Positions 6,170-38,499 of a DNA stretch of 64,000 nucleotides are shown here, in pieces (position 1 is the first letter of the stretch; every line of letters begins with the position of its first letter). The notes beneath the pieces were generated by a model. The model worked only from the letters and a program-made list of their open reading frames with translations. It made no database searches and had not been told where the DNA came from. The stretch is from assembly GCA_018715595.1 (NCBI GenBank), contig DVLI01000007.1, positions 62,001-126,000 of the forward strand, given 5' to 3'. The DNA is from Candidatus Caccoplasma merdavium. Its GTDB lineage: Bacteria > Bacteroidota > Bacteroidia > Bacteroidales > UBA11471. Both the position numbers and the translations under genes were made by a program.

Positions 6170-7606
6170 TTACATGTTTTCGGGGACGCTGTTGTAGACC
6201 TTTTGTTCTTTCAGTTTGGGGTCTTTACCCAGCGGGATAGAGATGCCGAAATTGAAGTTGGCGGCAATTTCACCTATGGGTATGTAGTCGGGCGTTACAC
6301 GCAGGGAGGAGAAGTCGGCTCCGATGAAGAGCGGCCCGAAATTGAGTACGGCACCGAAGGAGTTGGCAAAGTTCGAAACGGTTCCGTTTATTCCCAACAT
6401 AAACCAGCGTACCGGTTTTAAGTTGATGCTGCCCATGAGTGAAGTCTGGGTGTTGTTGGCATAAAAACGGGTGGTCGAGAGGAGACCTACCGAGATGTGG
6501 TTTCTGAGCAGTTGATATTCAGCACCTACGGTGAGAGTGGGGGCAAGCCATACCTTTCGTTTTGACGGAGCTTTTCCTTCGTTGAATTTGGCAAGGGCTT
6601 CAAGGTCGTCGGTCAAGTCGTCGACTTGGTCGTCGAACGTATTTCTCGATTCTCCCAGTTCATCGGTGTAATCATCGCTGCCGATTCCGGTAAACCCGTC
6701 GTAAATGATTTCACCATCGGGCGTGACGCCGCGCAAGTTCTTGTTCCACGATATAAATCCGATATTGGTAATCGCCGCCGATACGATGAGGTTTTTGACG
6801 GGAGTGTAGGTGGCACCCAAATCGAGCCCTACACCGCCGCCGGCAAGGCCCAATCCGTCGGTGTCGAAATCGAAGCCGGTGATTTCCCCGGTTTCGGGGT
6901 CGGTTTCGAGGCTGGCTCCGCCTACCGAAAGGTCGGCTCCGCCGTAGCTCTCGATTTTCCATTGGTCTTCGGCCATGGTAAGGGTGAGCTTGTCGAAGTG
7001 TGCATCGGCTTGTGCGGCACCCAGCAAAGCCTTGATCTTGGCACCGACCGTCAGTCGGTCGTTGATGCGGTGGGAGTGTCCCAAGGCTATCTCGACATAG
7101 GAGTTGGCTGTCGCCGAGAAATCTTTCAGGTCATATTGTGTGACGACTCCTTCGCTACCGTTTTTCAGGAATCGGAACAGGTCGCCGGGGATTGCCATCG
7201 ACATGCGTGTGTGCAGCGACACGTCGAGAGTGTTGAATCCGTTCCATTTGTGGAAACCGAATGAGAGAATCGAGAGGTCGGCATTGATGTTGAAGGCATT
7301 TTTGTCTTTGATGTTTTTCTCGAATTCTTCTGCCGATACCTCGGAACTGAGAAAGGTGTTGAGTTTGTCGCCGTCGGAGGGATAGATAAAGGTGTTGTAT
7401 CCGAAATTGGTCGACGTCCCGAACGAGATGTTTCCGAGCATGGGTATGGCCAAATAACCTCTTTCGGGAATCAAGGCGGGGTTAAGCTGGTGGCGCATGG
7501 GGGCACGTTCGAGAAAATAGGCGCTTTGCAGGGGTTGGGCCGACGCACCGGCTATCAGGAAACTGAACAACCCGGTCGTCAATATCTGTTTTATGGAGGA
7601 TTTCAT
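6170..7606 (-). CDS. DUF5723 family envelope protein
   Basis: A 478-residue protein with a signal peptide ending at ASAQ (about 23). The rest has alternating short hydrophobic strands and glycines typical of outer-membrane beta-barrels. The N-terminal block (YFLERAPMRHQLNPALIPE) and the repeated TVGAKIKALLG / PTLTVGAEYQLL strands fit the Bacteroidota family DUF5723, which resembles the PorV/FadL-like barrels. Its function is unknown. It lies 33 bases after the large lipoprotein gene, in the same direction, and the pair ends at the strong terminator at 6.1 kb, so it is probably an operon. A joint role at the outer membrane is inferred from the pairing alone. Confidence 0.8.
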   Translation of the reverse strand: MKSSIKQILTTGLFSFLIAGASAQPLQSAYFLERAPMRHQLNPALIPERGYLAIPMLGNISFGTSTNFGYNTFIYPSDGDKLNTFLSSEVSAEEFEKNIKDKNAFNINADLSILSFGFHKWNGFNTLDVSLHTRMSMAIPGDLFRFLKNGSEGVVTQYDLKDFSATANSYVEIALGHSHRINDRLTVGAKIKALLGAAQADAHFDKLTLTMAEDQWKIESYGGADLSVGGASLETDPETGEITGFDFDTDGLGLAGGGVGLDLGATYTPVKNLIVSAAITNIGFISWNKNLRGVTPDGEIIYDGFTGIGSDDYTDELGESRNTFDDQVDDLTDDLEALAKFNEGKAPSKRKVWLAPTLTVGAEYQLLRNHISVGLLSTTRFYANNTQTSLMGSINLKPVRWFMLGINGTVSNFANSFGAVLNFGPLFIGADFSSLRVTPDYIPIGEIAANFNFGISIPLGKDPKLKEQKVYNSVPENM

Positions 7607-7639
7607 GTTGTCTTGTTTTAGGTGTATTCAGTACTGATG

Positions 7640-9631
7640 TTATAATGTGTCGAGGTCGACTTCGATTTTTGCGAGTCTTGCACTGAGTTTCAGTTGCAGG
7701 TATTGTGTGCTGCGCAGAGCCCCGCTTTCGAGACCTTCACTCAGGCTTCCATCGATGCGGTATCGCAAGTCAGTGATCGATTTCAGGGCACCGTTGCTGT
7801 TCTCGGTGAGTCGAATGACGATTTTCCCGGTTGAGGGTGTCGGGTCGTAGAGGCTCATGTCGGTTGCCCCGGCGATGATTCCCTTGCCGTTTTCATCGCT
7901 GTTGAGGACTTCGAGGTCGATGCCTTTGATGATGCGGTAGTATTCGGGATTGTTGTCCTCTTCATCATCGATGACTCTCTCGTCGGCGGGAAGTTGCAGA
8001 TATTCTTCGGCCGAAATCTTTTGCAGTGGTTCGAGGGTAAATTCGAGGTCCAGCGGGAGGGTAGTCGTGTAGCTGGCGATAATGGCGGCCTCTTGCATGG
8101 AGAAGTCGGCGAATATGTCGTCGAGCCCGCCCTCAATCTCGGAGAAGTTGATGGCGAAGTTCTCACCGAACTCCATGGGTACGGTGATGTCGCAACTGAC
8201 CGAGACTTCACTGGGCTGGTTGTTGAGCAGTGCAATGTGTTCGACATTTTTGTCGGTTTGGGCCGAAACCGTGGCTTCGAGTGATGAGGGTATCTTGTTG
8301 TTGAGCAGGGCGGGAAGGTCGCCTTGTGCCCAGGTGTAGAGGGTGTCGTTGAGCCAGAATGTTTTCTTCTCGGCGTCGACCCAACTTGTGGTCGGCTCGC
8401 GTTGAGAAATGTAGATGTTGTTCTCGCTGGGAATCATTACATGGTTTGTCGCATCGTATGTGGCTTGGGCCATGTAGATGGTGTCGACGGTGATGGGTTC
8501 GGCGTTGAGACTTTCGCCATTACTGTCTTTGGGGTCGATAGTGAGGTGCGTCTTTACGGGAATACCCATGGGGTTGGTGGCGCATAGCTTGATGTAGGGG
8601 TTGGACAGGTCGAGGGTGATGTCGTTGCCTTCGAGGAAGTCGGGCATCGACCCGATTTCTATTGAGAACGATTCGTGGGCCGAAGCGTCGATGATACCGG
8701 CAATGCGGGTTATTTCAAGTTCTTCGATGGAGAAGTCGGTGCGTACTTGGGGTTGTGCGGCAAGGATTGTTCCCGCTCCATTCAACTCGATTTCTACCGA
8801 TGCGTTTCCGTCGAGCGTGAATTTGTTATTGACGATGTCGAGTATGTTTTCGTCCTCGCTGCTGGGCAGGAGAAGGAAATCGTTGGTCCCGTCGGGGCGG
8901 ATTTCACCACCACACAATCCGTAGATTTTGACGCTGATCGTGAATATTCCTTTTTCGGCGTTCTTTTGGGGAATGTAGAGGACATGGTCCCTGATGGCCA
9001 GCGGGTTTCCGTTGTCGTCGGTGTCTTCGAGCGTGACATCACCGATGTTGCCTGAGGGGGCGAGCATCAGCATGTGGGGCAGCGACATGGTCATGTCGGA
9101 GAGTTGCAATGCGAAATTGGCCGGGCCTTGCTCTTCATAAATTTCGGTGGTGATGGTGAGAACGGCCTCTTTGGGAGCATCGAAGAGAATCGTGTCGATG
9201 CGTTCGATTTCTTTCGAGATATTCAGTTCCGATGGGTCGACCGGAACGTCGGCCGATAAAGTGAGGGGTATCGAAGTGTTGAATTTGATACCATTTTCGA
9301 CCGCTGAAATGACTTCTTCGGGAAGTAAAATCTTCGTCGGTTCGATATTGGGAGCCAAACCGTTGCTTTGGTCGATGGCGACGCTCTGTATGGCTGCAAA
9401 CTCGGTTGTGGAACGGGTCGATTCGGAAATGTAATAAACGCTGTCGCCATTGATTTTCAAATTGTCATCGGTGCTGATGAGTTTCGACAATGTGAATTTG
9501 TCGGTTTCTCCGATGGGAATTGATATTCCATTCTCGGCAATCGTCACGTTCATGTCGATTTCCTTGTCATATTTGTTGTCTACGCAATTTGTCAACAACA
9601 AAAGACAGCAGGGAATGAGTAGTTTTTTCAT
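7640..9631 (-). CDS. Large lipoprotein of unknown function
   Basis: A 663-residue protein with a lipoprotein signal (lipobox LLTNC, Cys16). No catalytic motif is visible. The chain is acidic, rich in Thr/Ser/Asp and built of many predicted beta-strands, like the surface lipoproteins of Bacteroidales. Residues 120-330 and 400-600 contain repeated segments of the type IPLTLSADVPVDPSEL / LPLDLEFTLEPL, which suggest two or more related beta-sandwich units. It is the first gene of an operon with the DUF5723 barrel protein, and its promoter is about 70 bases upstream. It could be a partner or substrate of that barrel; this is inference from context. Confidence 0.75.
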   Translation of the reverse strand: MKKLLIPCCLLLLTNCVDNKYDKEIDMNVTIAENGISIPIGETDKFTLSKLISTDDNLKINGDSVYYISESTRSTTEFAAIQSVAIDQSNGLAPNIEPTKILLPEEVISAVENGIKFNTSIPLTLSADVPVDPSELNISKEIERIDTILFDAPKEAVLTITTEIYEEQGPANFALQLSDMTMSLPHMLMLAPSGNIGDVTLEDTDDNGNPLAIRDHVLYIPQKNAEKGIFTISVKIYGLCGGEIRPDGTNDFLLLPSSEDENILDIVNNKFTLDGNASVEIELNGAGTILAAQPQVRTDFSIEELEITRIAGIIDASAHESFSIEIGSMPDFLEGNDITLDLSNPYIKLCATNPMGIPVKTHLTIDPKDSNGESLNAEPITVDTIYMAQATYDATNHVMIPSENNIYISQREPTTSWVDAEKKTFWLNDTLYTWAQGDLPALLNNKIPSSLEATVSAQTDKNVEHIALLNNQPSEVSVSCDITVPMEFGENFAINFSEIEGGLDDIFADFSMQEAAIIASYTTTLPLDLEFTLEPLQKISAEEYLQLPADERVIDDEEDNNPEYYRIIKGIDLEVLNSDENGKGIIAGATDMSLYDPTPSTGKIVIRLTENSNGALKSITDLRYRIDGSLSEGLESGALRSTQYLQLKLSARLAKIEVDLDTL

Positions 9632-24515: not shown

Positions 24516-25622
24516 TCAACTCTGTGCCTCTCGGTCGAGGTAGAGGTAGTCGTAGTGGACAAACGGCTTGGCACCTTGCTTGCCGATGAGGGTGCGGGCT
24601 TTCTCGCTGTCGCAGCTGATGCGGCCTACGCCGATGGGGCTCCCGTCGGGCGCGCATATCCGCACGATGTCGTCTTTCTCAAAGTCCCCCTCTATGGCCG
24701 TGACACCGATGGGCAACAGGCTCACGGCGCGGTGTGAGAGCAACCGGTCGGCGGCTCCGGCGTTGATGTGCAGCGCCCCTTTGGCAAACCCTTCGGAGTG
24801 GGCAATCCATTTCTTGACGCTCGACGTCGTTTTGGTTGCCGGCAGGAAACGGGTGCAGAGCACGGGTCCTCCGTCGCACAGGAGGTCGGTGAGAATGTTG
24901 TCGCGCTTGCCGTTGGCGATGATTACCTCGATGCCTTCCTGGGCCACTTTGCGGGCGATGTTGCATTTGGTGAGCATGCCGCCACGGCCGAACGACGATT
25001 TCCCCACTTGTATGTATTGGGACAACTCCGCGCGGCTGTCGGCCGCAATCTCGGTGATGACCCGGCTGTCGGGGTCGTCGGGTTTCCCGTCGTAGATGCC
25101 GTCGATGTTGCTGAGAATGATAAGGGCCTCGGCACCCATCATGGTGGCAATCATGCCCGAGAGTTCGTCGTTGTCGGTGAACATGAGCTCGGTAACCGAC
25201 ACGGTGTCGTTTTCGTTGACGATGGGTATGACGTTGTTGTCGAGCATGACCTCCATGCAGTGTTTCTGGTTGAGGTAATGGCGGCGGGTGGCGAAGTTCT
25301 CTTTCATGGTGAGCACTTGGCCGCAGGCAATGCCGTGTTCGCGGAACAACTCATAATACCGGTTGATGAGTTTGGCTTGCCCTACGGCCGAGAAGAGCTG
25401 GCGTGCCGACACGGCATCGAGTTTCTTGTTGTGCTCGATGTCCAGTTCACTGCGACCCGAAGCCACGGCTCCCGAGGAGACCAGAATGACTTCGATGCCG
25501 CGGCGGCGCAGGTCGGCGACCTGGTCGACCAGCGCCGAGATGCGGGTCACGTCGAGCGTGCCGTCTCGTCGGGTGAGCACGTTGCTGCCTATTTTTACGG
25601 TGATGCGCTTGAAACGGGGCAT
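24516..25622 (-). CDS. proB: Glutamate 5-kinase
   Basis: A 368-residue protein from ATG 25622; the frame's earlier TTG is not needed. The amino-acid kinase domain (about 1-255) shows KIGSNVLTRRDGTLD, LVSSGAVASGR, NENDTVSV and the loop GKSSFGRGGMLTKCNIA. A C-terminal PUA domain (about 275-360) is present, as in E. coli ProB. The enzyme makes glutamyl-5-phosphate, the first step to proline. It is the last gene of an operon behind an acyl-CoA synthetase (12-base gap); proA, the usual partner, is not in the window. Confidence 0.96.
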   Translation of the reverse strand: MPRFKRITVKIGSNVLTRRDGTLDVTRISALVDQVADLRRRGIEVILVSSGAVASGRSELDIEHNKKLDAVSARQLFSAVGQAKLINRYYELFREHGIACGQVLTMKENFATRRHYLNQKHCMEVMLDNNVIPIVNENDTVSVTELMFTDNDELSGMIATMMGAEALIILSNIDGIYDGKPDDPDSRVITEIAADSRAELSQYIQVGKSSFGRGGMLTKCNIARKVAQEGIEVIIANGKRDNILTDLLCDGGPVLCTRFLPATKTTSSVKKWIAHSEGFAKGALHINAGAADRLLSHRAVSLLPIGVTAIEGDFEKDDIVRICAPDGSPIGVGRISCDSEKARTLIGKQGAKPFVHYDYLYLDREAQS

Positions 25623-25634
25623 GGGCAAGGACGG

Positions 25635-27290
25635 TTAGTGGTTCGATTTTTCGCGTATCTCGACCCGGCGTATTTTCCCGCTGATGGTCTTGGGCAGTTC
25701 GTCGACAAATTCCACGATACGGGGATATTTATAGGGAGCCGTCACATGTTTCACATGGTCTTGTATCTCCTTGATGAGTTCCTCGCCGGCACGGGCCTTG
25801 TACTCTTTCGAGAGGACGATGGTGGCTTTTACCACCTGGCCGCGTATTTCGTCGGGTACGCCGGTGATGGCACATTCCACGACGGCGGGGTGGGTCATGA
25901 GGGCGCTCTCGACCTCGAACGGGCCGATGCGGTAACCCGACGACTTGATGACGTCGTCGGCACGTCCCACAAACCAGTAGTATCCGTCTTCATCGCGCCA
26001 AGCCACATCGCCCGTGTAGTAGATGTTGTCGTGGTAGGCTTCGCGGGTCTTTGCCTCGTCGCGGTAGTACTCCTTGAAGAGCCCGATGGGTTTGCCCTTG
26101 TCGGTGCGGATAACGATTTGCCCCTGTTCGCCGTCTTCGGCCCAGCGGCCGTCGGAGGTGAGCAGGTCGACGTCGTATTGCGGGTTGGGTATGCCCATTG
26201 AGCCCGGTTTGGGTTCGACCCAGGGATAGGTGGCGATGGTGAGTGTGGTCTCGGTCTGCCCGAAACCTTCCATGAGCTTGATGCCCGTGATGCGGTAAAA
26301 CTCCTCGTAGACTTTGGGGTTGAGGGCTTCTCCTGCTATGGTGCAATAACGCAGCGAGGAGATGTCATACTTGGAGATGTCTTCGCGTATGAGGAACCGG
26401 AACACGGTGGGCGGCGCGCAGAACGAGGTGATGTGGTATTTCTCTATCATGGCAAGCACATGTGCCGGCACAAATTTCCCGAAGTCATAGACAAAGACGT
26501 TGGCACCGGCAATCCATTGCCCGTAGAGCTTGCCCCAAACGGCTTTTCCCCAGCCGGTGTCGGCGAGGGTGAGGTGCAGGCTCTCTTCGTTGAGGTTGTG
26601 CCAGTATGAGCCGGTGACGATGTGTCCCAGCGGGTAGGTGAAGTCGTGGGCTACCATTTTGGGGTTGCCGGTCGTGCCCGAGGTGAAATAGAGCAGCGAG
26701 GTGTCGTCGTTGGTATTGGCCAGGGCGGGACGCTCGAAGGGGGCGGCGGCTTCGATGCCGGCATGGAAATCGAGCCAGCCTTCGGGTATGGTGGGGCCTA
26801 TCGACACGCGGTATTGCAGCGAGGGGGAGTCGGCGACCGAGCGGTTGATGTGCCCGATGACGGGTTCTTCGCCTACGGCGACAATCATCTTTATGTCGGC
26901 CGCGTTGCAGCGGTAGATGATGTCTTTCTCGGTGAGCAGGTGGGTGGCGGGTATGCACACGGCTCCGATTTTGTGCAGTGCGATAATCGAGAACCAGAAC
27001 TCATAGCGGCGTTTGAGTATGAGCATCACCATGTCGCCGCGTTTGATGCCGAGCGACAGGAAGAACGAGGCGGTCTTGTCGCTTTCGCGCTTGATGTCGG
27101 CAAAGGTGAAGTCGATGTGGTGGTCTTCCTCGTTGGTCCAGCAAAGGGCTTTTTTGTCGGGCGCGATGCGGGCCCATTCGTCTACGACGTCGTATCCGAA
27201 GTTGAAATTCTCGGGTACGTTTATGTGGAAGTTTTTGATGAAATCTTCTTGCGAGGAAAATTTCGTCTGTTTCAGAAATTTCTCTAACAT
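25635..27290 (-). CDS. Acyl-CoA synthetase (AMP-forming), acetyl/medium-chain type
   Basis: A 551-residue ANL-superfamily ligase. Core motifs in order: [15 protein letters not shown] (phosphate loop), [22 protein letters not shown] (adenylate), [34 protein letters not shown]-type hinge region, and the C-terminal catalytic lysine in [13 protein letters not shown]. It forms an acyl-AMP and then an acyl-CoA. The closest pattern is the medium-chain/acetyl-CoA synthetase group found in Bacteroidales; the acid used cannot be read from the sequence. It lies 14 bases after an XRE-cupin regulator gene, a pairing that suggests that the regulator senses the acid or its CoA product. Confidence 0.92.
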
Positions 27291-27304
27291 GGGGTTGATG
27301 ATGA

Positions 27305-27859
27305 TTAAAAGATGATGGCAAGGAATTGTACCCGTTTCCCGTCGAGCGCTTTCATGCCGTGGGGGCGGTTGGCGTCGAAGTAGATGCTGTCTCCTTCGTT
27401 GAGCGTGAGTTGCTTGTTGCCGATTTGCAGGGTCATGCGGCCTTCGAGAATGTAGTTGAATTCCTGTCCCGGGTGCGTGTTGAGGTAGATGGGGGTCGCA
27501 TCGTCTTTGGGTTCTACGGTGACGACGAAGGGGTCGGCCTTGCGGTTCATGAATCCGGCGGCGAGCGACTGGTATTTGTAGGCTTTGGTCCGCTGCACGC
27601 TGGCGCCCATGCCCTTGCGGGTGAGGAAGTAGCTGTTCATGCGGGGTTCTTCGCCAAACATCAGTGCCGTGAGGTCTATCTCGTAGTGGGTCCCGATTTG
27701 GTGCAAGATGCTCACGGGAATGTCGATGTTGCCCGATTCCATTAGTTCATATTCCCGGGGTTCGATACCGCACACGGCGGCCACATCGGCCGTCGTGAGA
27801 TCGAGTACTTCGCGCAGCCCTTTCAGTCGGGAAGCGATTTGTTTGATTTGTTCGTTCAT
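27305..27859 (-). CDS. XRE-family regulator with C-terminal cupin sensor domain
   Basis: A 184-residue protein. The N-terminal helix-turn-helix (about 10-65) has [29 protein letters not shown]-type spacing, and a cupin barrel (about 110-184) contains the metal-binding-like segments [21 protein letters not shown] and [13 protein letters not shown]. Regulators of this build usually control the next operon genes in response to a small molecule bound in the cupin. It heads an operon with the acyl-CoA synthetase and proB, so self-regulation of that operon is likely. Confidence 0.92.
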
Positions 27860-28024
27860 AAAAACTCTATTTTATACGCCCGGGGAGCTGTTGCGGCCAC
27901 TCTCCGGAGAGGGTTGTTGTTTGTTGCGGGCGGGCCCGGCAGGGGGTGCCGACTTGTTGTGGGCCGCGTGCCGTCCCGGTTACCATGGGGGCAACGGCTT
28001 GTTGCGTACGGTCGCATTGCACCT
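27860..28024 (-). other. Long GC-rich leader of the XRE-cupin operon
   Basis: About 165 bases between the predicted transcript start and ATG 27859. They contain several CAACAA and GGC-rich repeats and a short GC-rich palindrome near the middle. No known riboswitch was recognised. It may hold the operator for self-control. Confidence 0.4.
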
Positions 28025-28032
28025 GTTGTTGA

Positions 28033-28063
28033 CAAAGATACGACAAAGCGCAAAAAAAACAAT
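28033..28063 (-). promoter_or_regulatory. Promoter of the XRE-cupin operon
   Basis: Minus strand TATCTTTG (28040-28033) matches TAnnTTTG; ATTG lies upstream at 28063-28060 with a 19-base spacer. Confidence 0.6.
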
Positions 28064-28108
28064 CATTCCGCCACGAAAAACCGATTTTTTCTTCTCTTTT
28101 GCCGAGCG

Positions 28109-28140
28109 TTTGTTTCTCTGCCGAATATCTTCTAACTTTG
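28109..28140 (+). promoter_or_regulatory. Promoter of the FHA-protein gene
   Basis: TTTG at 28109-28112, a 20-base spacer, TAACTTTG at 28133-28140: a full consensus match. The transcript starts about 12 bases before ATG 28160. Confidence 0.75.
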
Positions 28141-28159
28141 TAGAAAAGTTTATGTCCCT

Positions 28160-28663
28160 ATGAAACGAGTCTTATGTCCCCGCTGCGACGGCCATGTGAC
28201 TTTCGACGAGCAACGTTGCCGCGCCGGAGAGTCGCTCTTCCTGGTCTGTCCGCATTGTGGAAAAAGTTTTTCGCTCTCCTATGAAGAGATTGTCCGTCAG
28301 CCCGATACCGCCGATTGCGGCAAGATTGTCGTGCTCGAAAACAACTGTTGCGAGCGGCAGGAATTCCCGCTGGCCCTTGGCGACAACGTGATAGGCCGAC
28401 GCAACAAGGGCACCGACGTGGATATTGCCATCGAGAGCAGCGATGCCGACCTCGAACGCCGCCATTGCATCATCAATGTCCGTCGCAACAAAAATGGCGA
28501 GTTGGTATATACCCTCCGCGACTGTTCTGCACGTTCGGGCACTTATTTGCGGCAAGACCGTTTGGGCAAACGCGACCAGGTGCGTCTCGACTCGGCCGAT
28601 GTCGTTTCGATAGGAGGCACCACCTTTATCCTTCACGTTCCCGGAGGCGACGAGGAGGAGTAA
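28160..28663 (+). CDS. FHA-domain protein with N-terminal zinc ribbon
   Basis: A 167-residue protein. Residues 5-37 hold a Cys4 zinc-ribbon pattern (CPRCDG ... CPHCGK). Residues 75-160 form a forkhead-associated domain, with VIGRRNKGTDVDI, the phosphothreonine-contacting SDADLERRHCIIN segment and the loop SARSGTYL. FHA domains bind phosphothreonine peptides. No Ser/Thr kinase is in the window. The gene lies about 70 bases before the GlmU-like gene in the same direction, without a terminator between them, so they may be cotranscribed. Role unknown. Confidence 0.85.
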   Translation: MKRVLCPRCDGHVTFDEQRCRAGESLFLVCPHCGKSFSLSYEEIVRQPDTADCGKIVVLENNCCERQEFPLALGDNVIGRRNKGTDVDIAIESSDADLERRHCIINVRRNKNGELVYTLRDCSARSGTYLRQDRLGKRDQVRLDSADVVSIGGTTFILHVPGGDEEE

Positions 28664-28732
28664 TCCCCGGCCGGAAAGCCCTCTCCCCTCCCGTGACAAA
28701 AAACAAAAACCGAACTTATAAATGCGTAGTAT

Positions 28733-29929
28733 ATGAAAAATATCGTCCTCTTCGATACCCGCGATGTGCATTGCGCCTGCTTGCCCATCACCTTCACCCG
28801 CGCGGTGAGCGACGTGAGGGTGGGTATTCTCACCATCAAGGAAAAATGGCAACATTACATTCCGGGAGACTACACGGCTCTCACGGCCGAATACTTGGCC
28901 GTGAAATATCCGGCACTCCCCGATGAGGCCCTCTTCATTGCCGGGAACCTCTGTCCCGATGCCGAACTGCTGGCCGCCGTGACGGCTCTGACGCCCGGTA
29001 TGGCCCTGCTCGATGCCGATGCCCGCCTGTTGGCCTTCTGCGGGACATGCAGCGACATGCAATCGGCCCGTTACGCTCGCACGCTCACCTATACCGGTGT
29101 GCCCGTGCGCATCGCCGCGGCCTATGACATTTTCAGGGAGAACGGCCGGGAACTCGAAAAAGACTTCCGCCTTCTCACCGCCGGCCGCACTTCGCAACCG
29201 CTGCCCGAGTCGTGCCGTCTCGTGGGCGAACCGACTTTCCCCGACGGCACCCCACGACTCTTTATCGAAGAGGGAGCCAAGCTCGAATGCGTCATTATCA
29301 ACGTCAACAACGGCCCGGTGTATATAGGCCGCGACGCCGAGGTGATGGAAGGCGTGTGCATACGCGCCCCGTTTGCCGCCTGCACCCATGCCACGGTGAA
29401 CATGAATGCCAAAATCTACGGTGCCACCACCCTTGGTCCCTATTGCAAGGTGGGAGGAGAGTTGAGCAATGTCGTCATGCAAGCCTATTCCAACAAAGGC
29501 CACGACGGCTACCTGGGCAACGCCGTCATCGGCGAGTGGTGCAACCTCGGTGCCGACACCAACTGCTCCAACCTCAAAAACAACTATGCCGAAATCAAGC
29601 TTTGGGATTATGTCTCGCACCGCTTCAAACCCACCGGCATGCAGTTTTGCGGACTGCTCATGGGCGACCACTCCCGTTCGGGCATCAATACGATGTTCAA
29701 CACCGCCACCGTTGTGGGGGTAGGCGCCAACGTCTACGGGCCGGGATTCCCCTGCACCGTCATCGACTCCTTTGTGCAGGGCGGAGCCGAAGGGTTCACC
29801 TCCGTTCCCGTGGCAAAGGTCATGGAGATGGCCCAGCGCATGATGGCCCGTCGCGGCAAGTCGCTCACCGACGCCGAGCGTCAGGTACTGCAATCGCTCG
29901 CCGACAATCCCTATCCCGCACAAAAATAA
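28733..29929 (+). CDS. Alternative GlmU-like sugar nucleotidyl/acetyltransferase
   Basis: A 398-residue protein of the Bacteroidota GlmU-like family. The N-terminal part begins with LPITFTRAVSDVRVGILTI, the family's own start, instead of the L-x-x-G-x-G-T-R-M loop of classical GlmU. From about 190 a left-handed beta-helix built of hexapeptide repeats runs to about 350 (VYIGRDAEVMEGVCI, NMNAKIYGATTLGP, GEWCNLGADTNCSN). It is expected to handle GlcN-1-phosphate acetylation and UDP-GlcNAc formation, but the uridylyl step is less certain because the canonical residues are absent. Cytoplasmic. Confidence 0.85.
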   Translation: MKNIVLFDTRDVHCACLPITFTRAVSDVRVGILTIKEKWQHYIPGDYTALTAEYLAVKYPALPDEALFIAGNLCPDAELLAAVTALTPGMALLDADARLLAFCGTCSDMQSARYARTLTYTGVPVRIAAAYDIFRENGRELEKDFRLLTAGRTSQPLPESCRLVGEPTFPDGTPRLFIEEGAKLECVIINVNNGPVYIGRDAEVMEGVCIRAPFAACTHATVNMNAKIYGATTLGPYCKVGGELSNVVMQAYSNKGHDGYLGNAVIGEWCNLGADTNCSNLKNNYAEIKLWDYVSHRFKPTGMQFCGLLMGDHSRSGINTMFNTATVVGVGANVYGPGFPCTVIDSFVQGGAEGFTSVPVAKVMEMAQRMMARRGKSLTDAERQVLQSLADNPYPAQK

Positions 29930-29934
29930 GGTTT

Positions 29935-29976
29935 AGAGGGGGCTCCGCGATAGGAGCGTACCCCTCTTTCCTTTTT
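29935..29976 (+). terminator. Terminator after the GlmU-like gene
   Basis: A two-part stem, 29935-29941 with 29961-29967 and GCTCC (29942-29946) with GGAGC (29953-29957), followed by TTTCCTTTTTT. Confidence 0.8.
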
Positions 29977-30007
29977 TACCGTTTTAATTTGAGTTGAGAC
30001 CAAGGCC

Positions 30008-30205
30008 ATGAAATATACAGTCACCATCGAAGAGACCGTGGTAAAAGATTTTGAGGTTGAAGCCGAGTCGATGGAGCGTGCCATAGATGCAGCTATCATA
30101 AATTACAAGTCGGGAGAATTTGTTCTTGACCCCGGCGAGGTTATTCACAAGCAGATAAGAGCTTCTTATCATTCTCAAAAAGACTCCGGTTGGAGGGAGT
30201 TTTGA
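30008..30205 (+). CDS. DpnD/PcfM-like small protein
   Basis: A 65-residue protein. The pattern MKYTVTIEETVVKDFEVEA, then residues A-x-x-A-I followed by Y-x-x-G-E-F-V-L-D, fits the DpnD/PcfM-like family. DpnD is the second product of the pneumococcal DpnI restriction cassette, and PcfM belongs to an enterococcal conjugative plasmid; neither has a known function. The gene sits 13 bases before a nuclease-like gene in the same direction. Codons are richer in A/T than in the flanking genes. A weak -7-like box, TTAATTTG, is at 29984-29991. No enzyme motif is visible. Confidence 0.75.
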   Translation: MKYTVTIEETVVKDFEVEAESMERAIDAAIINYKSGEFVLDPGEVIHKQIRASYHSQKDSGWREF

Positions 30206-30218
30206 TATTTTTGCGATT

Positions 30219-30959
30219 ATGAAACAATACGAAGCCGTAATACAGACCATCGAAAAATTGGGTGGAGTAGCCACCCTCGGGCAGTTGAATCAAGAAGTTT
30301 TTAAAATAGAAGCGTGCAAGTGGGAAACAAAAACCCCTTTTGCCAGTATTCGGCGCATCGTACAAACGACAAAAGGAATATACAAAATAAAGCCGGGATT
30401 GTATGGGTTGGAAAAAATGAGACACATCAACGAAGAGAATGGCTTCATGGTTGAAACTGATAAAAACAGAGACTCGAAAGCGTATCTGTTGTTTACCCAT
30501 ACCTATTACCAAGGACTGTTGTTGGAGGTAGGCAATCTCCGTGGTCTTGGCACCTACTCTCCTCATCAGGACAAGAACCATCGTTTCTCCGATGGCCGGC
30601 GGTTGAGTGAGATTTCCAGTCTTGGCGGGTTGCCCTCTTTTTCATACCCACACATGGTAAAGCGATGCTCTACCGTCGACGTCGTGTGGATAAACGGCCG
30701 GGGCATGCCCGATTCGCTTTTTGAAGTGGAACATTCGACCGACATACAAAATTCGCTGTTGAAATACAGCGACCTGCAAGATTTTAATGCGAGAATGGTT
30801 ATCGTGGCCGACAAGCGGCGGAAAGAGGAGTATTTGCAAAAAATAAGGTGCTCTGCTTTTGGCGCCATTTCGCAAAGAGTGCATTTTCTCGATTATGAAT
30901 CGCTCAATGCCCAATATATGCAAGAACTTGCAAAAAAAGATTTTTCATTCAATCTTTGA
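30219..30959 (+). CDS. Winged-helix plus PD-(D/E)XK-like putative endonuclease
   Basis: A 246-residue protein of unrecognised family. Residues 1-70 look like a winged helix of the HARE-HTH kind (YEAVIQTIEKLGGVATLGQL ... KGIYKIKPGLYGL). Residues 85-235 carry a restriction-enzyme-like core: a helix with Glu near 103 (LLLEVG), then VDVVW near 153-157 and FEVEHSTDI near 167-175. Together these imitate the E...D...ExK order with E-V-E in place of E-x-K. GC content is lower than in the neighbours, suggesting transfer. It follows the DpnD/PcfM-like gene by 13 bases, and a terminator follows. A TATTTTTG box at 30206-30213 might give an extra internal start. A DNA-binding nuclease in defence is inferred, not shown. 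Confidence 0.6.
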   Translation: MKQYEAVIQTIEKLGGVATLGQLNQEVFKIEACKWETKTPFASIRRIVQTTKGIYKIKPGLYGLEKMRHINEENGFMVETDKNRDSKAYLLFTHTYYQGLLLEVGNLRGLGTYSPHQDKNHRFSDGRRLSEISSLGGLPSFSYPHMVKRCSTVDVVWINGRGMPDSLFEVEHSTDIQNSLLKYSDLQDFNARMVIVADKRRKEEYLQKIRCSAFGAISQRVHFLDYESLNAQYMQELAKKDFSFNL

Positions 30960-30979
30960 CCGATACGCCGGTATCAAGG

Positions 30980-31014
30980 AGGGGAGAGACCCGGAAGGGT
31001 TTCTCCCCTCTTTC
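30980..31014 (+). terminator. Terminator of the DpnD-like cassette
   Basis: AGGGGAGA (30980-30987) pairs with TCTCCCCT (31002-31009), with an inner ACCC/GGGT, followed by CTTTCG. Confidence 0.7.
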
Positions 31015-31074
31015 GTATGAGGCGGTCGCGACAGCGGAGAGGTCTGTTGCTGTGGGGCCGGGTGACAACTCCCG

Positions 31075-34000
31075 TCATCGGGCGAGGTCGAGTTTGATGG
31101 TGATGCCGATGTCGCTGTTGAGGGTGGGGTAGCTGCTCGACGAGATGAGCGGCGTGGTGATTTGCAGGTCGTAGTAGGCTTGCAGGGTGATGTAGCGGCT
31201 CAGTTTGTACTCGGCCGAGTATTTCATGTTGATGGCTTTGTTTCCGGCTGTGGCCTGGGTATATTCCTGCTCGATGCGGCGTATGAGGGAGTGGGTCTTG
31301 GCAAAGGAGAAGTCGCCCCGCAGGTTGATGTCGTTGCTGTATGTGCCTTGTTTCCCCCCTTTGCCCGAGAAGAAGCCGCGCAAGCCGGTGATTTTGTAGC
31401 CGATGCCTACGGTCACGTCCTGGGTGACGGCTTCGACGATTTGTACCGAGGAGATGCTCAGGTTGAGGTTGCGGCTGTTTTTGTAGGCCAGGCTTCCCGA
31501 GAGGTTGTTTTTGAGGGTGAAGTCGATGCCCAGCAGGGGAGAGAAGCTCTCGATGATGGTGACCGATGAGATGTCGTAGGGCGATGAGGGTACGGGATAG
31601 CCCGTCTGTGAGTCTTTGACAAATCCCATGTCGCTATCGCCGCCGATGCTCACCCAGTTGAGGTAGGAGGAGAAACTGTTGACGTTGTAGGTGCATTTGT
31701 AGGCGTGGGAGATGATGAAACTCTTGAAGACTTTCTGCATCTTTTTCAGTTTCGACAATCCGTCGTAGGTCAGTTTCCAGTTGGGGATAAGTTGCGTCCA
31801 CGAGGGGAAGGCGGTGAGGTCGATTGTACGGGCGTCGCCTCCGGTGTAGGCGGCGATGAATGAGGGTATCAGCACGTCGGCCGAGCTGATGTTGACGCCG
31901 CCATACAGGGTGTTGTAGGGTTGTCCCGCCAGGTTGGCTTCGCCGATGAAGTCGGCTGCGGGGTAGAAGGTGTTGCGGTAGTTGCTTTCGAGGCGGTTGG
32001 CGACAATCTGACGGTTTTGCAGGAACTGGTCGAAGGCGTCGGACTGGTATCCGTTCTCGGCCGAGAGTTTCTTGAAGGCCGTGGACAGGGCCATGTGCGT
32101 CATGGTGAAGCTGCCGCCCTGTATGGTGGGCTTGTTGTCGTACATGAAGTAGATTTGGTTGTTGTGGCTCTGGCTGCGTGCGATGTTGAGGGTGATTTTG
32201 AGCCCGTTCAGCGGTTCGAGCACGATGTCGGCCTGCAAGTCGTTGGTGCGGTTGTGTATGGCCGGGCTTATGAGCGACGAGTCCTGGGTCATGAGCCAGT
32301 TGTTCTCGACGGCATGGTCGATGTAGTCGCTGCCCACGGTGGCGAAGGCAAATCCCAACCCCGGCGCCATGGCGCCGTAACCGGTCGATTGGCCGAGCAT
32401 GTCGCCGACTGAGGGCGCGAACGACGGCAGTGTCATCGAACGGGTGTTGCTGTATTGTATGTTGGCGCTGCGCAGCATCATGGCGAAACGGGTAGCATAC
32501 ATGCCCACCTGGTACCACTTGTTTTCTTCGCGTCGCTTGCCCGGGAGCACCGTGATGATGATGCGCTCGTCGGATCGTGTCTCGACGCGTATGGTGTTGG
32601 CGTCGACGACTTTGTATTCGATGGGGTAGACTTTGCCTTTGAGGGTGGCCGATACGATGGGCTTTTTACTGTCGAGGTTGTGCTTTACCAGGGTCGAGGT
32701 GTCGGCGCGCAGGGTGATGGTGCGCTGGTAGCGGTTGCGCTTTTGCGGGGTGCGGCTGTTGCTGCCGCGGTTGTTGAATTTCTGGTTGACCGACTTCAAG
32801 AATTTCGATTTGTTGTAGAGGGTCTCGAAGTTGAACCGTCCGTTGACCGAGAGGCGCCCCTGGTTGCTGATGCTGTTGCCCACCGAGGTGGTGTCGTCAA
32901 TGGAGGCTCCGCGATTCCAGTTGTAGGTGGCGTTGTAGGTCGAGGAGAGGCTTATCCAGTTGAGCGAGGGTATGTTGTTGAGCGGCACGTTGAAGGTGGC
33001 GTTGAAGCTCTGCTGGTATTCCCACGGGGTTCCGAAGTCGCGCAGGCTGTTCTTTACCGAGTCTTTCCACAGGGTGTATTCTTCGGCAAACAACTGTTTG
33101 TTGACGGCTCCCGACGGCTCTTCGATGCGGGCGTTGGTGGCTGTCGAGAGGTTCATCGAGAGGCTTTGCAGGAGGTTCCACTGTATGGCGAACTGGCGGT
33201 CCCACAGGAAACTTTTGCTCACCGACACCGGCAAGGTCACGTCGCTCTCGTCGATGCTGCGCAGCTGTTGTTCGTAGTAGTAACGCGATATGCTGGTGCC
33301 GAACGAGAGGTTGTTGGGCAGGTAGTTGATGCCCATTTTTTTGAGGACGTCGAGGCTTTTCGATTTCGATTTTATTTTCTCGAAGGGTTTCCACGGTTTG
33401 ATGAGCGGCGAGTAGCTGTATATGAGGTTCCCGTTGTAGGTGTTGGTATTCTCATAGGCTGTCGTCGGGTCGTTCTCGTGCTGCTTGTTTTGCGAGTAGC
33501 TGAATGTGAAGTTGCCCGGGTCGTAGGGCATGGGATTTTTGCTCTTGATGTCGACCTTGAAGCCCGAGAGGCTGAGGCTTTTCACGGTCGACTGGGTGAT
33601 GGAGAGCTGCTTTATCGAGTCGCGGGCGGCGTCGTTGGCGGCGGCTTCGAGGGCGTCGGAGAGCAAGATGTCCTGGTCGAGCGGGTTGTATTTGGGCAGG
33701 GATTTCTCCATCGTGTAGGAGTAGAAGAAGGGGGCTTTGATTTTGGCTTTCTCGGGGAAGAAGCGGCCCAGGTCGACCATGGCGGCGAAGTTGTACTGGT
33801 AGAGGTCGTCGAGACGGCGTTCGCTCAGGCTCTGGTCGATGCCGCCGAAGCCCGTGGTCTCGACCAGCCCGCTCATGTTGAGGGTGGCGATGTCCGACAC
33901 GGCCAGGTTGAGGTTGCCCTTGGCCGCCCAGCCGCCCTCTTCGTTGAAGCCTTTGAGCCGCAGTTCGTTTATCCACACGGTGGCGCTTTTCTTGCGTCCC

Positions 34001-37000
34001 GAGTTGTTGCGCACGCCCACGAGTATGGTTTTCACGTTGGAGAGCGACGGGTTACCCATGACGGTAATCTTGTTGGTCGGCTTGTCGGGGTCGTAGCTCG
34101 AATAGGGGGTGGTGCTGCTCACTCCCGAGCCGTTGGTGTTCTGGGCGACGTTGCGCTCCTGTTTCAGGGAGGTGAGCAGTTCGAGCGGGAAGTCAAACAT
34201 GTTGGCCTCGGGCCACACCTTTTCCTGGTCGGCCGAGCTGTATGTGTTGTAGCGGCCGGCCGGGGTGAGCTGCAAGGGTATCTCATACTCGTAGTAGTTG
34301 TTGCAATAGTCCGAGCCCAAGCGTATGAAGATGGACAATTCGTTGTTTTTGAGGTCAGTATCATCGTCGATGAGCTGCTCGGCGTGGGTAAACATTTGCA
34401 GCCGTTTGTAGTTGCGCATGTCGGTACCGGAGGTCTTGTATATGGCACGGGCGTTTTTCGAGGGCAGGTCTCTGATGGTGAGTGAGATGGCCTGCTCGTT
34501 GAGTTGGGTGATCTGCGACTGGTCGGGAGAGATGATGCGGGTCACGCCGGGGGGGAGCACATAGTTGACGGGCGTCTGGCCGGCATTCTCTTCGATGTTG
34601 ACCACCGACACGTCGATGTCGCCCTCGGCGGGGGCATTGCTGCTGCCGCTGATGTCGGAGTGCAGTTTGTATTCATAGGTACGCCATTCGCCGCGCACCA
34701 GTTCGAGCGTGGCAAAGCGCAGATGGGTTTCTTTGTTGAAGCCCGTGAGGAAAATGCGGGCAAACCGTATGCTCGAAAAGTCTTGTATCGAGCCTACGGT
34801 CTGGCGCGGTTCGTGCGAAGCGTCTTCGCTGTCGTCGCGCAAGGGTATCTTGAACTGGTACCAGCGCACGGTCGATGACTCGCCGTTGCGCAGCGGTACC
34901 GTCACGGTGCGCATGTCGGTGATGTAGTTGCTTCCCACCTGCAAGTCTTCGGGGGTGATTTTCACGGCATACTGGTAGTAGCGCTCATACTCGTCGAGCG
35001 TGTTGTCCTGGTTGATGTCCTCGACGTCGGGGACACTGCGCGACGACTGGTAGTAGCGGTCGTCGACTTCGCTGGAAGATAGTGAGTTGCCTTCTGTTCC
35101 GTTGTAGTATTTATACCGGGTGAGAATGTCGGTTTCTTCTTCATTGAACCGTTCGCTCAGGAAGTATTGGTAATTGTCTCGGGCGGGGTCGTTGAGCGGG
35201 GAGTGGGGGTCGGCCAGCATGCGGTTGAGTGCCGTGCCCGAGAGTTTGGCGCGGAGACCCTCGACAAATCCTTGGTAAGAGGAGAAGTTGAGCTCGTCCT
35301 CGTCGGAGAGGCCGTCGAGACCTGCGTCCTGCCGCACGCGGGCGCCGCTGCTGTTGTCGAAGGCGTAGGTGAGCGATTGCTGCCGCGAGACGCGTCCCCA
35401 CACCGTGGTCGAGAGGTATGAGGTGTCGTTGTTGATGGGAAGGCCGTTTTCGTAGGACTTCATGCCGTCTTTGAGAATGTCTTCCGACACTTCGCCGAAG
35501 TTGAAGTAGAGCATGCCCCCCTTGTTGCTGCCGTCTTCGTTGTAGAGGAAGGGGTCCATGAGCCAGAATTGCAGGTACTCGATGTTGGAGTTGTCAAAGT
35601 CGGTGATGTCCATCTTGCGCATGATGCCGGCCCACCGTTTCTCGGGATTGAGCAGGTGCCCTTCCTCGTCGATGTTTTGGGCGTCGGTGTTGTAGGGCCC
35701 GTGTTCCTGCGGATAGTAGGAGAGGTTGAGAACCTGCATGACCGACGACTCGCCGTAGTTGAGCTCCTTGTTGGGGAATACCTCGGTGTATTCGACCTCG
35801 CGCACATAGTGGTTCGAGAGTTGTTCGAGGTCGTTTTTGATGTGTGCCGGGGTGGCCGATGAGTTGCGTTGCGTGAAGATGCGGTCGATGTAATACCAGG
35901 CGAGCAGGGCGCGGTTTTTGCCGTAGTCGAGGTTGTTCGACAGGGCCGATTCCACAAACATCGACGGGGTGGCCGACAATGTCCAGGAGTAGGGCGTGCG
36001 TATGTCGATGGTCGTCTGTGACCCTTCAAAGTCATCGAGATAGGAGAGGGTCGAGGCGTTTTTCTTTTCGCCGGGAATGAGCTGGGCAAACTCGGCGGTG
36101 AGCGACAGCCGCGACGGGACGGTGGCCGTCACGGTGGGTATCTTGTTGAGCCACGAGGTGAGCCACTGGAACTCGGTGTTGTAGGAGGTGTTGAATCCCC
36201 ACAGCGTGTTGTTGAGCACCTCACTGCCCATGTTCACCTTCTCGGTGAGGGCTTTTTCTTTCATGTGCATGAGGGTGAGCCCCAGGTTGAAGTCGGGCGT
36301 GAAGGCGTAATTGAGGTCGAGACCTACCAGCGTTTTGCGTTGCATGCTCAGGCTTTGGTTCTCGAACGAGACGTCGATGTTGGTGCCCGAGTCGATGTAA
36401 CTCTGGTTGAGAATCGTTACGACACCCATGTTGTAGTCGACCGTGTAGTCGACATTCTCGGTGAGTGTCACGCCGCCGGCCGTTACGCGCACCGAGCCGC
36501 GCGGAATGTTGAAGGCGTTGAGGTGTATCTCGGCGCTGTTCGATGCCTGGTATTCGCCTTTGAGTATGAACTTGTTCTTGTCGGCAAACTGCTTGGCCAC
36601 CGTGAGGGTCGAGTCGTAGAGCTCCTGGTAGGCGTAGCGGGCACCTTCGGGGCCTCCGATGGCTTGTTGCAGGTGGGAGCCGAAGGGCTCGACCACGGGA
36701 AAGATGATGCGCCCCGACGAGGGGAGTATCGTGTAGCCCGAGACGTAGTCGAAGATACCGTCGGAGTTGGTCTCCTGGTTGTTGTCGAGCCGGTCGAGGT
36801 TCATGACTTGCAGCAGGGTCTTTTCCTTGATGTTGCCCACCGGCAGGTAGGCGGTGTTGGTGCCCACCGAGTCGTTTTGGTAGTAGATGTTGAGGCGGAA
36901 GTTCTCTTGTTCCACCTGGTAGGCGCCCAATGAATAGACGTTTTTCATCATCAGGTGCCAAATGGGTTTCTTGTTGGTGACGGTCGACCCTTTGAGCATT

Positions 37001-38499
37001 TTCACATAGAGGCTCTGTTCGGTGTCGGTGATGTCGCTTGCAAACTCGCCCACCTGGTAGGTCTGCCCGTTCTTGGTGTATTCAAAGGCCACGGCCAGCA
37101 CCTCGTCGCTGGTGAGTTGGCTGTTGAGCGACACATAACCGAGCTGGCTGTTGAGGGTGTATTCCGAGGACGAGAGCAACCGGGCGCTCTCTATCTTGGC
37201 ATAGTCTTCTCCGCCGTAGATGCCATAGGCTTCGAGGGGGCTCAGTGCCTGTGTCGCCTGGTTGATGTATCGGGCATCGGGGTAGGAGGTGATGATTTCG
37301 TTGTAGAGCGAGTTGGCCGAGTTGGTCGGGTATTGTGCGCCACTGGTCGTCCAGTGGTCGCTGGCCAGGTTGCCGGCCTGGGTCTCTCCCAAGTCGGCAA
37401 AGGCAACGATGTTGCGCGCGTTGTCGTAGGAGCCCTGTTTGTTGGTGACCCATATCTCGATGCGGTTGATGGTGATGCCCGAGGTGATGTAGGGCAGCCG
37501 CGCGATGAACTGGTCGTAGTTGTCGCGGAAGTAGTGGGCCAGGAAGAAGTGCCGGTTTTGGTCGTAGGCGTCGACTCCGATTTCAAATTCGGTGGTCTGG
37601 CTGCCCCCTTCGCTGCTTACGGTCTTGGAGTCGGTCTCCTGTTGCGATACGAGGCCGGTAACGGTGAGTTTGCCAAATTGCAGCGTGGTTTTCAGACCGA
37701 AGAGCGAGGTCCCGCCCCGAATGAGGGTCGAGCCGGTGGTCATGCTGATGTTGCCGCCCTCGATGGTCTTGATGATTTGGTCTTCGTCGCCTTCGTATTT
37801 GAGGCTCATTTTCTGGGCGTCGAAGTCGAAGGTGGCGTCGGTGTTGTAGGTCATGTTGAAGCCCACCTTCGTGCCCACCGAGGCGTTGATGGTGGCCTGT
37901 ATCTTCTCGTCGAAGTCGAAGTAGGTTTTCTTGCGGGCGCTCTCGGCGAGGGCCGGGTTGTCGATTTTGTTGGTGACGAGGCTCAGGGTGAGGCTCATCG
38001 ACCCGCTGGTTTTCAGTCTCACGCCGCCCGGGCCGAATACCTTGTCGAGGGCTTGCACGTTGAATTGCATGTCGAGAAAGTCAAACTCGTTGTCTCCTTT
38101 GGCAAAATTCTCGGCATTCTTGGCGCGATAATATTCCTGCATCGACTTCTTGAAGGTGTAGTCGCTGTACTCGTCGGCTGTGAGCATGAAGGGGGTCGAG
38201 ACCGTCATGTCGCCCACTTTGGTGCGTACGACGTAGCAGTTGGTCTTGGCGTCGTATTCGAAGTCGGTATGTACGTTTTCGGGTGTTTTCAGGTCGGCCG
38301 GCGGGAGTGTGTGCAGGTCGTCGAAGGTCTCTATCGAGGTCTTGGCCACCGGGAACCGAGACGGCGTGCGGGGTATGGTGTCGCTTGCCGGCGTTTGGCC
38401 GGCGGGACGGACAGCCTGTGATGCGGCAAAAGCGGAATAAAGGCTTATCCCGCTTATAACCAAAAGAATATATATCGAAAAAATTCTCTTTCCCATCAT
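31075..38499 (-). CDS. sprA: Type IX secretion outer-membrane translocon SprA/Sov
   Basis: A 2474-residue protein with a signal peptide (about 1-26). It matches SprA of Flavobacterium and Sov of Porphyromonas in length (about 2400-2500) and in the family's N-terminal region (FDFLDMQFNVQALDKVFGPG, VGTKVGFNMTYNTDATFDFD, LIRGGTSLFGLKT). A repeated SprA N-terminal-type module occurs again around residues 1000-1200. The C-terminus is barrel-like, ending LDLAR. SprA forms the very large 36-strand barrel through which T9SS cargo crosses the outer membrane. The gene follows ruvA by 57 bases on the same strand, a conserved order in this phylum. The T9SS plug and gldH genes lie 2-17 kb further on. Confidence 0.95.
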   Translation of the reverse strand: MMGKRIFSIYILLVISGISLYSAFAASQAVRPAGQTPASDTIPRTPSRFPVAKTSIETFDDLHTLPPADLKTPENVHTDFEYDAKTNCYVVRTKVGDMTVSTPFMLTADEYSDYTFKKSMQEYYRAKNAENFAKGDNEFDFLDMQFNVQALDKVFGPGGVRLKTSGSMSLTLSLVTNKIDNPALAESARKKTYFDFDEKIQATINASVGTKVGFNMTYNTDATFDFDAQKMSLKYEGDEDQIIKTIEGGNISMTTGSTLIRGGTSLFGLKTTLQFGKLTVTGLVSQQETDSKTVSSEGGSQTTEFEIGVDAYDQNRHFFLAHYFRDNYDQFIARLPYITSGITINRIEIWVTNKQGSYDNARNIVAFADLGETQAGNLASDHWTTSGAQYPTNSANSLYNEIITSYPDARYINQATQALSPLEAYGIYGGEDYAKIESARLLSSSEYTLNSQLGYVSLNSQLTSDEVLAVAFEYTKNGQTYQVGEFASDITDTEQSLYVKMLKGSTVTNKKPIWHLMMKNVYSLGAYQVEQENFRLNIYYQNDSVGTNTAYLPVGNIKEKTLLQVMNLDRLDNNQETNSDGIFDYVSGYTILPSSGRIIFPVVEPFGSHLQQAIGGPEGARYAYQELYDSTLTVAKQFADKNKFILKGEYQASNSAEIHLNAFNIPRGSVRVTAGGVTLTENVDYTVDYNMGVVTILNQSYIDSGTNIDVSFENQSLSMQRKTLVGLDLNYAFTPDFNLGLTLMHMKEKALTEKVNMGSEVLNNTLWGFNTSYNTEFQWLTSWLNKIPTVTATVPSRLSLTAEFAQLIPGEKKNASTLSYLDDFEGSQTTIDIRTPYSWTLSATPSMFVESALSNNLDYGKNRALLAWYYIDRIFTQRNSSATPAHIKNDLEQLSNHYVREVEYTEVFPNKELNYGESSVMQVLNLSYYPQEHGPYNTDAQNIDEEGHLLNPEKRWAGIMRKMDITDFDNSNIEYLQFWLMDPFLYNEDGSNKGGMLYFNFGEVSEDILKDGMKSYENGLPINNDTSYLSTTVWGRVSRQQSLTYAFDNSSGARVRQDAGLDGLSDEDELNFSSYQGFVEGLRAKLSGTALNRMLADPHSPLNDPARDNYQYFLSERFNEEETDILTRYKYYNGTEGNSLSSSEVDDRYYQSSRSVPDVEDINQDNTLDEYERYYQYAVKITPEDLQVGSNYITDMRTVTVPLRNGESSTVRWYQFKIPLRDDSEDASHEPRQTVGSIQDFSSIRFARIFLTGFNKETHLRFATLELVRGEWRTYEYKLHSDISGSSNAPAEGDIDVSVVNIEENAGQTPVNYVLPPGVTRIISPDQSQITQLNEQAISLTIRDLPSKNARAIYKTSGTDMRNYKRLQMFTHAEQLIDDDTDLKNNELSIFIRLGSDYCNNYYEYEIPLQLTPAGRYNTYSSADQEKVWPEANMFDFPLELLTSLKQERNVAQNTNGSGVSSTTPYSSYDPDKPTNKITVMGNPSLSNVKTILVGVRNNSGRKKSATVWINELRLKGFNEEGGWAAKGNLNLAVSDIATLNMSGLVETTGFGGIDQSLSERRLDDLYQYNFAAMVDLGRFFPEKAKIKAPFFYSYTMEKSLPKYNPLDQDILLSDALEAAANDAARDSIKQLSITQSTVKSLSLSGFKVDIKSKNPMPYDPGNFTFSYSQNKQHENDPTTAYENTNTYNGNLIYSYSPLIKPWKPFEKIKSKSKSLDVLKKMGINYLPNNLSFGTSISRYYYEQQLRSIDESDVTLPVSVSKSFLWDRQFAIQWNLLQSLSMNLSTATNARIEEPSGAVNKQLFAEEYTLWKDSVKNSLRDFGTPWEYQQSFNATFNVPLNNIPSLNWISLSSTYNATYNWNRGASIDDTTSVGNSISNQGRLSVNGRFNFETLYNKSKFLKSVNQKFNNRGSNSRTPQKRNRYQRTITLRADTSTLVKHNLDSKKPIVSATLKGKVYPIEYKVVDANTIRVETRSDERIIITVLPGKRREENKWYQVGMYATRFAMMLRSANIQYSNTRSMTLPSFAPSVGDMLGQSTGYGAMAPGLGFAFATVGSDYIDHAVENNWLMTQDSSLISPAIHNRTNDLQADIVLEPLNGLKITLNIARSQSHNNQIYFMYDNKPTIQGGSFTMTHMALSTAFKKLSAENGYQSDAFDQFLQNRQIVANRLESNYRNTFYPAADFIGEANLAGQPYNTLYGGVNISSADVLIPSFIAAYTGGDARTIDLTAFPSWTQLIPNWKLTYDGLSKLKKMQKVFKSFIISHAYKCTYNVNSFSSYLNWVSIGGDSDMGFVKDSQTGYPVPSSPYDISSVTIIESFSPLLGIDFTLKNNLSGSLAYKNSRNLNLSISSVQIVEAVTQDVTVGIGYKITGLRGFFSGKGGKQGTYSNDINLRGDFSFAKTHSLIRRIEQEYTQATAGNKAINMKYSAEYKLSRYITLQAYYDLQITTPLISSSSYPTLNSDIGITIKLDLAR

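Follow-up and report, generated by a model that had tools for sequence, protein, structure and literature searches.

Two adjacent genes in the window, by which is meant the whole 64,000-nucleotide stretch of DNA that was analysed, on balance appear to form a mobile, stand-alone, methylation-dependent restriction cassette, probably directed against Gm6ATC, which would make it a functional analogue of DpnI from outside the DpnI family. Modification-dependent restriction had been raised as a possibility in the original prediction, and it gains support from the alternation of the nuclease with a DpnII-type cassette at one chromosomal site, from truncated dam genes, from purifying selection and from linkage to DpnD.

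The two open reading frames noted originally are present on the plus strand at 30008–30205 (65 aa) and 30219–30959 (246 aa), and are separated by 13 bp. The assignment of the 65-aa protein to DpnD/PcfM was confirmed by a match of residues 3–42 to PF14207 (E 3.9e-11, 43.2 bits against a Pfam gathering cut-off of 25), and this is the single PF14207 copy in its genome, G000. The 246-aa protein, predicted to carry a winged helix and a PD-(D/E)XK-type nuclease domain, belongs to a family of which 31 full-length homologues were found, and its gene is referred to below as the REase gene. The pair had been described as A/T-rich and foreign in composition, and its G+C content is indeed 43.9%, as against 54.2% for the window, placing it within the lowest 0.5% of 952-bp blocks; the third-position G+C content of the nuclease gene is 50%, as against 75–82% in neighbouring genes. 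A search with methylase references gave no match in window positions 25001–36000, as anticipated, and the cognate methylase of a type II restriction-modification system is thus lacking at the locus.

The left border of the insert is a plus-strand terminator (29938–29978) belonging to the upstream sugar nucleotidyltransferase gene (28733–29929), and the right border is a terminator-like hairpin (30978–31016, no strand assigned) downstream of a 2474-aa gene on the minus strand (31075–38499), which we take to be SprA-like from our own reading of the sequence. In the sister species G333 the same flanking genes and both terminators are present and the insert is absent; the terminators are therefore native, and the two genes represent an insertion between them. 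The earlier statement that terminators flank the pair is correct as to their existence, but they are a property of the flanking genes, shared with the insert-free relative.

The 246-aa protein is likely, from its sequence and a structural model, to be a nuclease with an N-terminal winged helix and a C-terminal PD-(D/E)XK-type core, the arrangement that had been read from the sequence originally and that was borne out by profile searches and structure prediction. An AF2 model built from 30 sequences (pLDDT 91.8, pTM 0.88), which superseded an earlier one built from 16 sequences (pLDDT 80), places a winged helix at residues 3–64, followed by a helix and the mixed sheet of a beta/alpha core. The HARE-HTH-like N-terminal domain is assigned to residues 1–73 (30219–30437, plus strand) and the nuclease core to residues 87–242 (30477–30944, plus strand), over which the pLDDT is mostly 90–97. 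In the model the putative catalytic aspartate D154 (codon 30678–30680) opens one core strand and the putative E-x-E motif E169-V170-E171 (codons 30723–30731) lies on the next (strands 155–158 and 164–170), which corresponds to the D...(D/E)-x-(K/E) pattern on adjacent strands that is expected of a PD-(D/E)XK nuclease. D154, E169, E171 and K182 are invariant in all 31 homologues; W35, P40, R45 and R46 of the winged helix are also invariant.

The HARE-HTH profile PF05066 matched 16 of 30 homologues (best E 8.2e-6) and did not match the window protein itself, while the PADLOC model REase_II matched all 30 (best 7.5e-11) as well as the window protein (8.5e-5). The window nuclease alone gave no match to Pfam (E < 10), NCBIfam or PHROG profiles, and no solved structure related by sequence was found. 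By Foldseek the winged helix resembled Rok (probability 0.98), an 84-residue RNA polymerase chain (0.95), presumably the delta subunit, and also a HARE-HTH protein. Foldseek matches to the core were weak (YaeQ, probability 0.84–0.95; BsoBI, 0.72; Ecl18kI; XPF/MUS81 type) and none had an E value below 1e-3. Membership of the DpnI (PF06044), Mrr and DpnII families was rejected, as neither the window protein nor the 30 homologues matched their profiles, and the order typical of the DpnI family, with the nuclease N-terminal and the winged helix C-terminal, is reversed in the model. The description 'DpnI-like' therefore stands for predicted function and for the cassette, but not for the family.

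The family has an accessory distribution: in addition to the absence of the pair from the same site in G333, the nuclease was found in three of seven genomes of the genus. Across the order it was detected in 23 of 393 sampled genomes (E ≤ 1e-3), with a full-length member in 14 of these, and in another order of Bacteroidota in 22 of 164 genomes (E ≤ 1e-20), 16 of which hold the close family. Distant homologues of ∼310 aa, with ∼30% identity confined to the nuclease core, were set aside; four of the genomes concerned carry DpnM-type genes on other contigs. Distant relatives of ∼300–415 aa (L046–L051, L169–L173) likewise match in the core alone (∼30% identity) and have a different N-terminal part, and several of them come from genomes with DpnM-type genes. 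A plasmid from the archaeon Halobacterium hubeiense carries a homologue with 47% identity (L028, 8001–8729) that has no methylase neighbour and represents transfer between domains of life. Phage or viral relatives were not detected by tblastn in phages or among viral contigs, and structural matches to viral proteins were weak.

The nuclease alternates with a DpnII-type cassette at one chromosomal site. In G173 and G266 the nuclease gene stands alone between the genes for enolase and PEPCK, and in G068 the same space is occupied by DpnM (PF02086), DpnII (PF04556, E 2.6e-99) and DpnA (PF01555); on either side the flanking sequence can be aligned right up to the insert. The space is empty in G000, G333 and G393, the last of which has a DpnII-type cassette at another site. 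This arrangement resembles that of pneumococcus, where the genes for DpnI and DpnII share one location (PMC3573125). REase fragments containing stops were found in G278, a genome with a DpnII cassette, and in G090.

The 31 full-length homologues were classed by their neighbours. No methylase adjoins 16 of them, that of the window included, and in seven loci a truncated DpnM lies directly 5′ of an intact REase gene. The DpnM remnants are 79 aa (G054), 115 aa (G242), 69 aa (G326), 92 aa (G318) and 88 aa (G859) in length; DpnM of G879 (283 aa) has lost its C-terminus, and so has that of G197, the start of which lies beyond the contig end. These loci are scattered over the tree, with seven changes needed for seven loci, and the truncations therefore look independent. 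As a control, 21 DpnM-type genes (at least 40% identity) from 164 genomes were considered; by our reading of the search listing, the only ones that are short inside a contig are two that lie beside an REase gene. Damage was also seen on the other side of the nuclease: in G197, G326 and G820 a DpnA without its N-terminus comes after the nuclease and a DpnD-like gene, and in G326 the catalytic DPPY of DpnA is changed to YPPY. A DpnA-type gene is the only methylase neighbour of two homologues (G114 and G820). The methylase-REase-methylase order around the broken genes matches the DpnII cassette in G068; it looks as though DpnII itself had been exchanged for the new pair, with damage to the methylase gene on either side.

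It is unlikely, in our estimate, that the protein is a classical type II enzyme, perhaps for GATC, that has lost its methylase, and that the gene is now unexpressed, without activity, or shielded by a methylase encoded at another place in the genome. Such an origin would suit the REase_II assignment by PADLOC, the intact methylases that adjoin some homologues (described below) and the other D12 methylases of the same genome. However, a cell that loses the methylase while its cognate enzyme is active should die, and at the seven truncated loci the REase is intact. Copies without a methylase neighbour are also under purifying selection, both in the G173/G266 pair (pN 0.0070 against pS 0.082) and in the L001/L002 pair (pN 0.019 against pS 0.58), which indicates that they have been kept functional and fits poorly with dead type II remains. 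The tandem D12 genes of the window's own genome, in turn, sit with an R gene of their own: the three-gene operon L112 (G000, contig C26, 8034–11361) encodes a tandem pair of D12 methylases together with a putative R protein of 462 aa, a layout like that of the GGATG systems of FokI type in Prevotella intermedia (PMC5608340).

Methylases elsewhere were sought by family searches covering types other than C5. By these searches the window's own genome has no DpnM-type gene, and unlinked DpnM-type methylases (E ≤ 1e-60) were found in none of 30 carriers of the nuclease as against 70 of 527 non-carriers (p = 0.016). The figure becomes one of 30 carriers (p = 0.08) when a linked intact D12 methylase in G369 is counted and, because the genomes are phylogenetically non-independent, the depletion lends weak support. 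Divergent D12-like adenine methylases lie beside phage-type genes in the window's own genome (L122, contig C19 of G000, 6926–7780) and in G266 (L118, contig C2, 7657–8481), and a distant D12 gene (36–40% identity) is present in G255.

These D12 genes and the weakly significant depletion of DpnM count against the reading of the pair as a Gm6ATC-dependent cassette, as do the absence of any Foldseek match below E 1e-3 and the homologues with apparently intact methylases beside them. In G369 (L041), the only such case among the 31, an intact D12 methylase lies directly upstream of the REase gene. Five homologues have a PF05869 Dam neighbour; in G526, a single-contig genome, this gene is frameshifted, and in the monophyletic clade of G542, G703, G845 and G836 it appears intact downstream of the REase gene. 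If the D12 of G369 or the Dam of this clade methylates GATC, the homologues beside them cannot cut Gm6ATC. As the clade is monophyletic, it may reflect a single switch, either to a classical restriction-modification pair or to another target. Loci with a phage-type PF05869 Dam after the nuclease are L165 of G703 (3203–3784), L202 (6228–6824), L164, L201 and L166; the gene is frameshifted in L166 and apparently intact in the other four.

A modification-dependent nuclease for another mark (5mC, 4mC or m6A outside GATC) would not conflict with some Dam genes, and would account for the intact methylases that adjoin L041 and members of the PF05869 clade. It would also accord with the argument that HARE-HTH domains sense cytosine modification (discussed in PMC11037411). 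The repeated truncation of DpnM and DpnA, which are of GATC type, and the alternation with DpnII at one site nevertheless point to GATC adenine methylation, and another mark is considered distinctly improbable.

Avoidance of GATC was dropped as a test of the target. Over 108 kb of the window's own genome, 55 GATC sites were seen against 388 expected (observed/expected 0.14), but the site is depleted across the genus (0.11–0.30), with or without the nuclease. CTAG is depleted too (ratio about 0.02), both in this genome and in every sampled congener, whether or not it carries the nuclease.

PF14207 was found in seven of 28 genomes searched, always as a single copy, and five of these seven copies adjoin the nuclease, a linkage for which chance is an unlikely explanation. 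DpnD accompanies true DpnI as well, and so seems to be tied to nucleases of this kind. The order with DpnD first, given in the original prediction, is that of the window, but most relatives that have DpnD carry it after the nuclease. Other small open reading frames occupy similar positions in other relatives. That the nuclease is held in check by its DpnD-like partner and released on infection, as an abortive defence or toxin-antitoxin system independent of modification, would draw on this linkage and on the similarly placed small genes, but is very unlikely, as many homologues have no DpnD neighbour (for example in G173, G266, G582 and G722) and the broken methylases would be left unexplained.

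Under the favoured explanation, that of a methylation-dependent cassette, the HARE-HTH-like winged helix would recognise methylated DNA, m6A in GATC being the likeliest mark, and the PD-(D/E)XK-type domain would cut it, with DpnD as a co-inherited partner. Host DNA would be safe because the host would lack a DpnM/Dam-type GATC methylase. Entry of the cassette into a DpnII-type cell would need simultaneous loss of the methylase, and this requirement would explain both the homologues that have taken the position of DpnII, flanked by truncated dpnM and dpnA genes, and the alternation at one site.

A broader proposal is that the DpnI principle was invented a second time, non-orthologously, as a reversed-order HARE-HTH/PD-(D/E)XK nuclease for Gm6ATC, that DpnII-type loci were converted several times across Bacteroidota and that DpnD assists methyl-directed nucleases in general; this we put forward tentatively, leaning slightly against it as a whole. 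If it is true, a general evolutionary switch would underlie the DpnI/DpnII alternation in pneumococcus and the exchange of dam for drg in Neisseria, and would have been reached in Bacteroidota by an unrelated enzyme with a new reader-nuclease architecture for m6A. The role of DpnD would be open to a tractable test, and the possible failure of Dam-methylated E. coli plasmids to enter bacteria of this kind would be explained.

Among known systems, Mrr (EcoKMrr) shares with the window protein an N-terminal winged helix and a C-terminal nuclease of the PD-(D/E)XK superfamily, and it restricts methylated DNA. The active site of Mrr is PD-QxK, and the window protein and the 30 homologues, unlike Mrr, have no Mrr_N or Mrr_cat match in Pfam. 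The DpnII-type cassette (DpnM-DpnII-DpnA) shares a chromosomal site with the nuclease in congeners, and its methylase remains flank several homologues in methylase-REase-methylase order, but DpnII (PF04556) is unrelated in sequence and the window locus has no methylase.

The m6A-dependent winged-helix nucleases of Helbrecht et al. (PMC11037411), type IV fusions such as FcyTI, HhiV4I and Ahi29725I, are likewise stand-alone enzymes, mostly without methylase neighbours, and an adjacent methylase is occasionally inactivated by a frameshift. The characterised PD-(D/E)XK members differ in having the DpnI order, and a text search of that 2024 paper turned up no PD-(D/E)XK domain of the present kind with a winged helix at its N-terminus.

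Close parallels for the predicted function are the methyl-directed Gm6ATC nucleases DpnI and NmeBII (drg). The window protein differs from both in its reversed domain order, in having no detectable sequence relation to them, in the HARE-HTH-like subtype of its winged helix and in an E-x-E in place of E-x-K, and its function is predicted. Like them, it combines a PD-(D/E)XK-type domain with a winged helix in about 250 aa and is of low G+C content. With DpnI it shares the DpnD partner and the alternation with DpnII at one site that is known from pneumococcus. With Neisseria drg it shares the replacement of dam: that DpnI-like gene is inserted at dam, is mutually exclusive with it, has a lower G+C content and is under stabilising selection (PMC516771).
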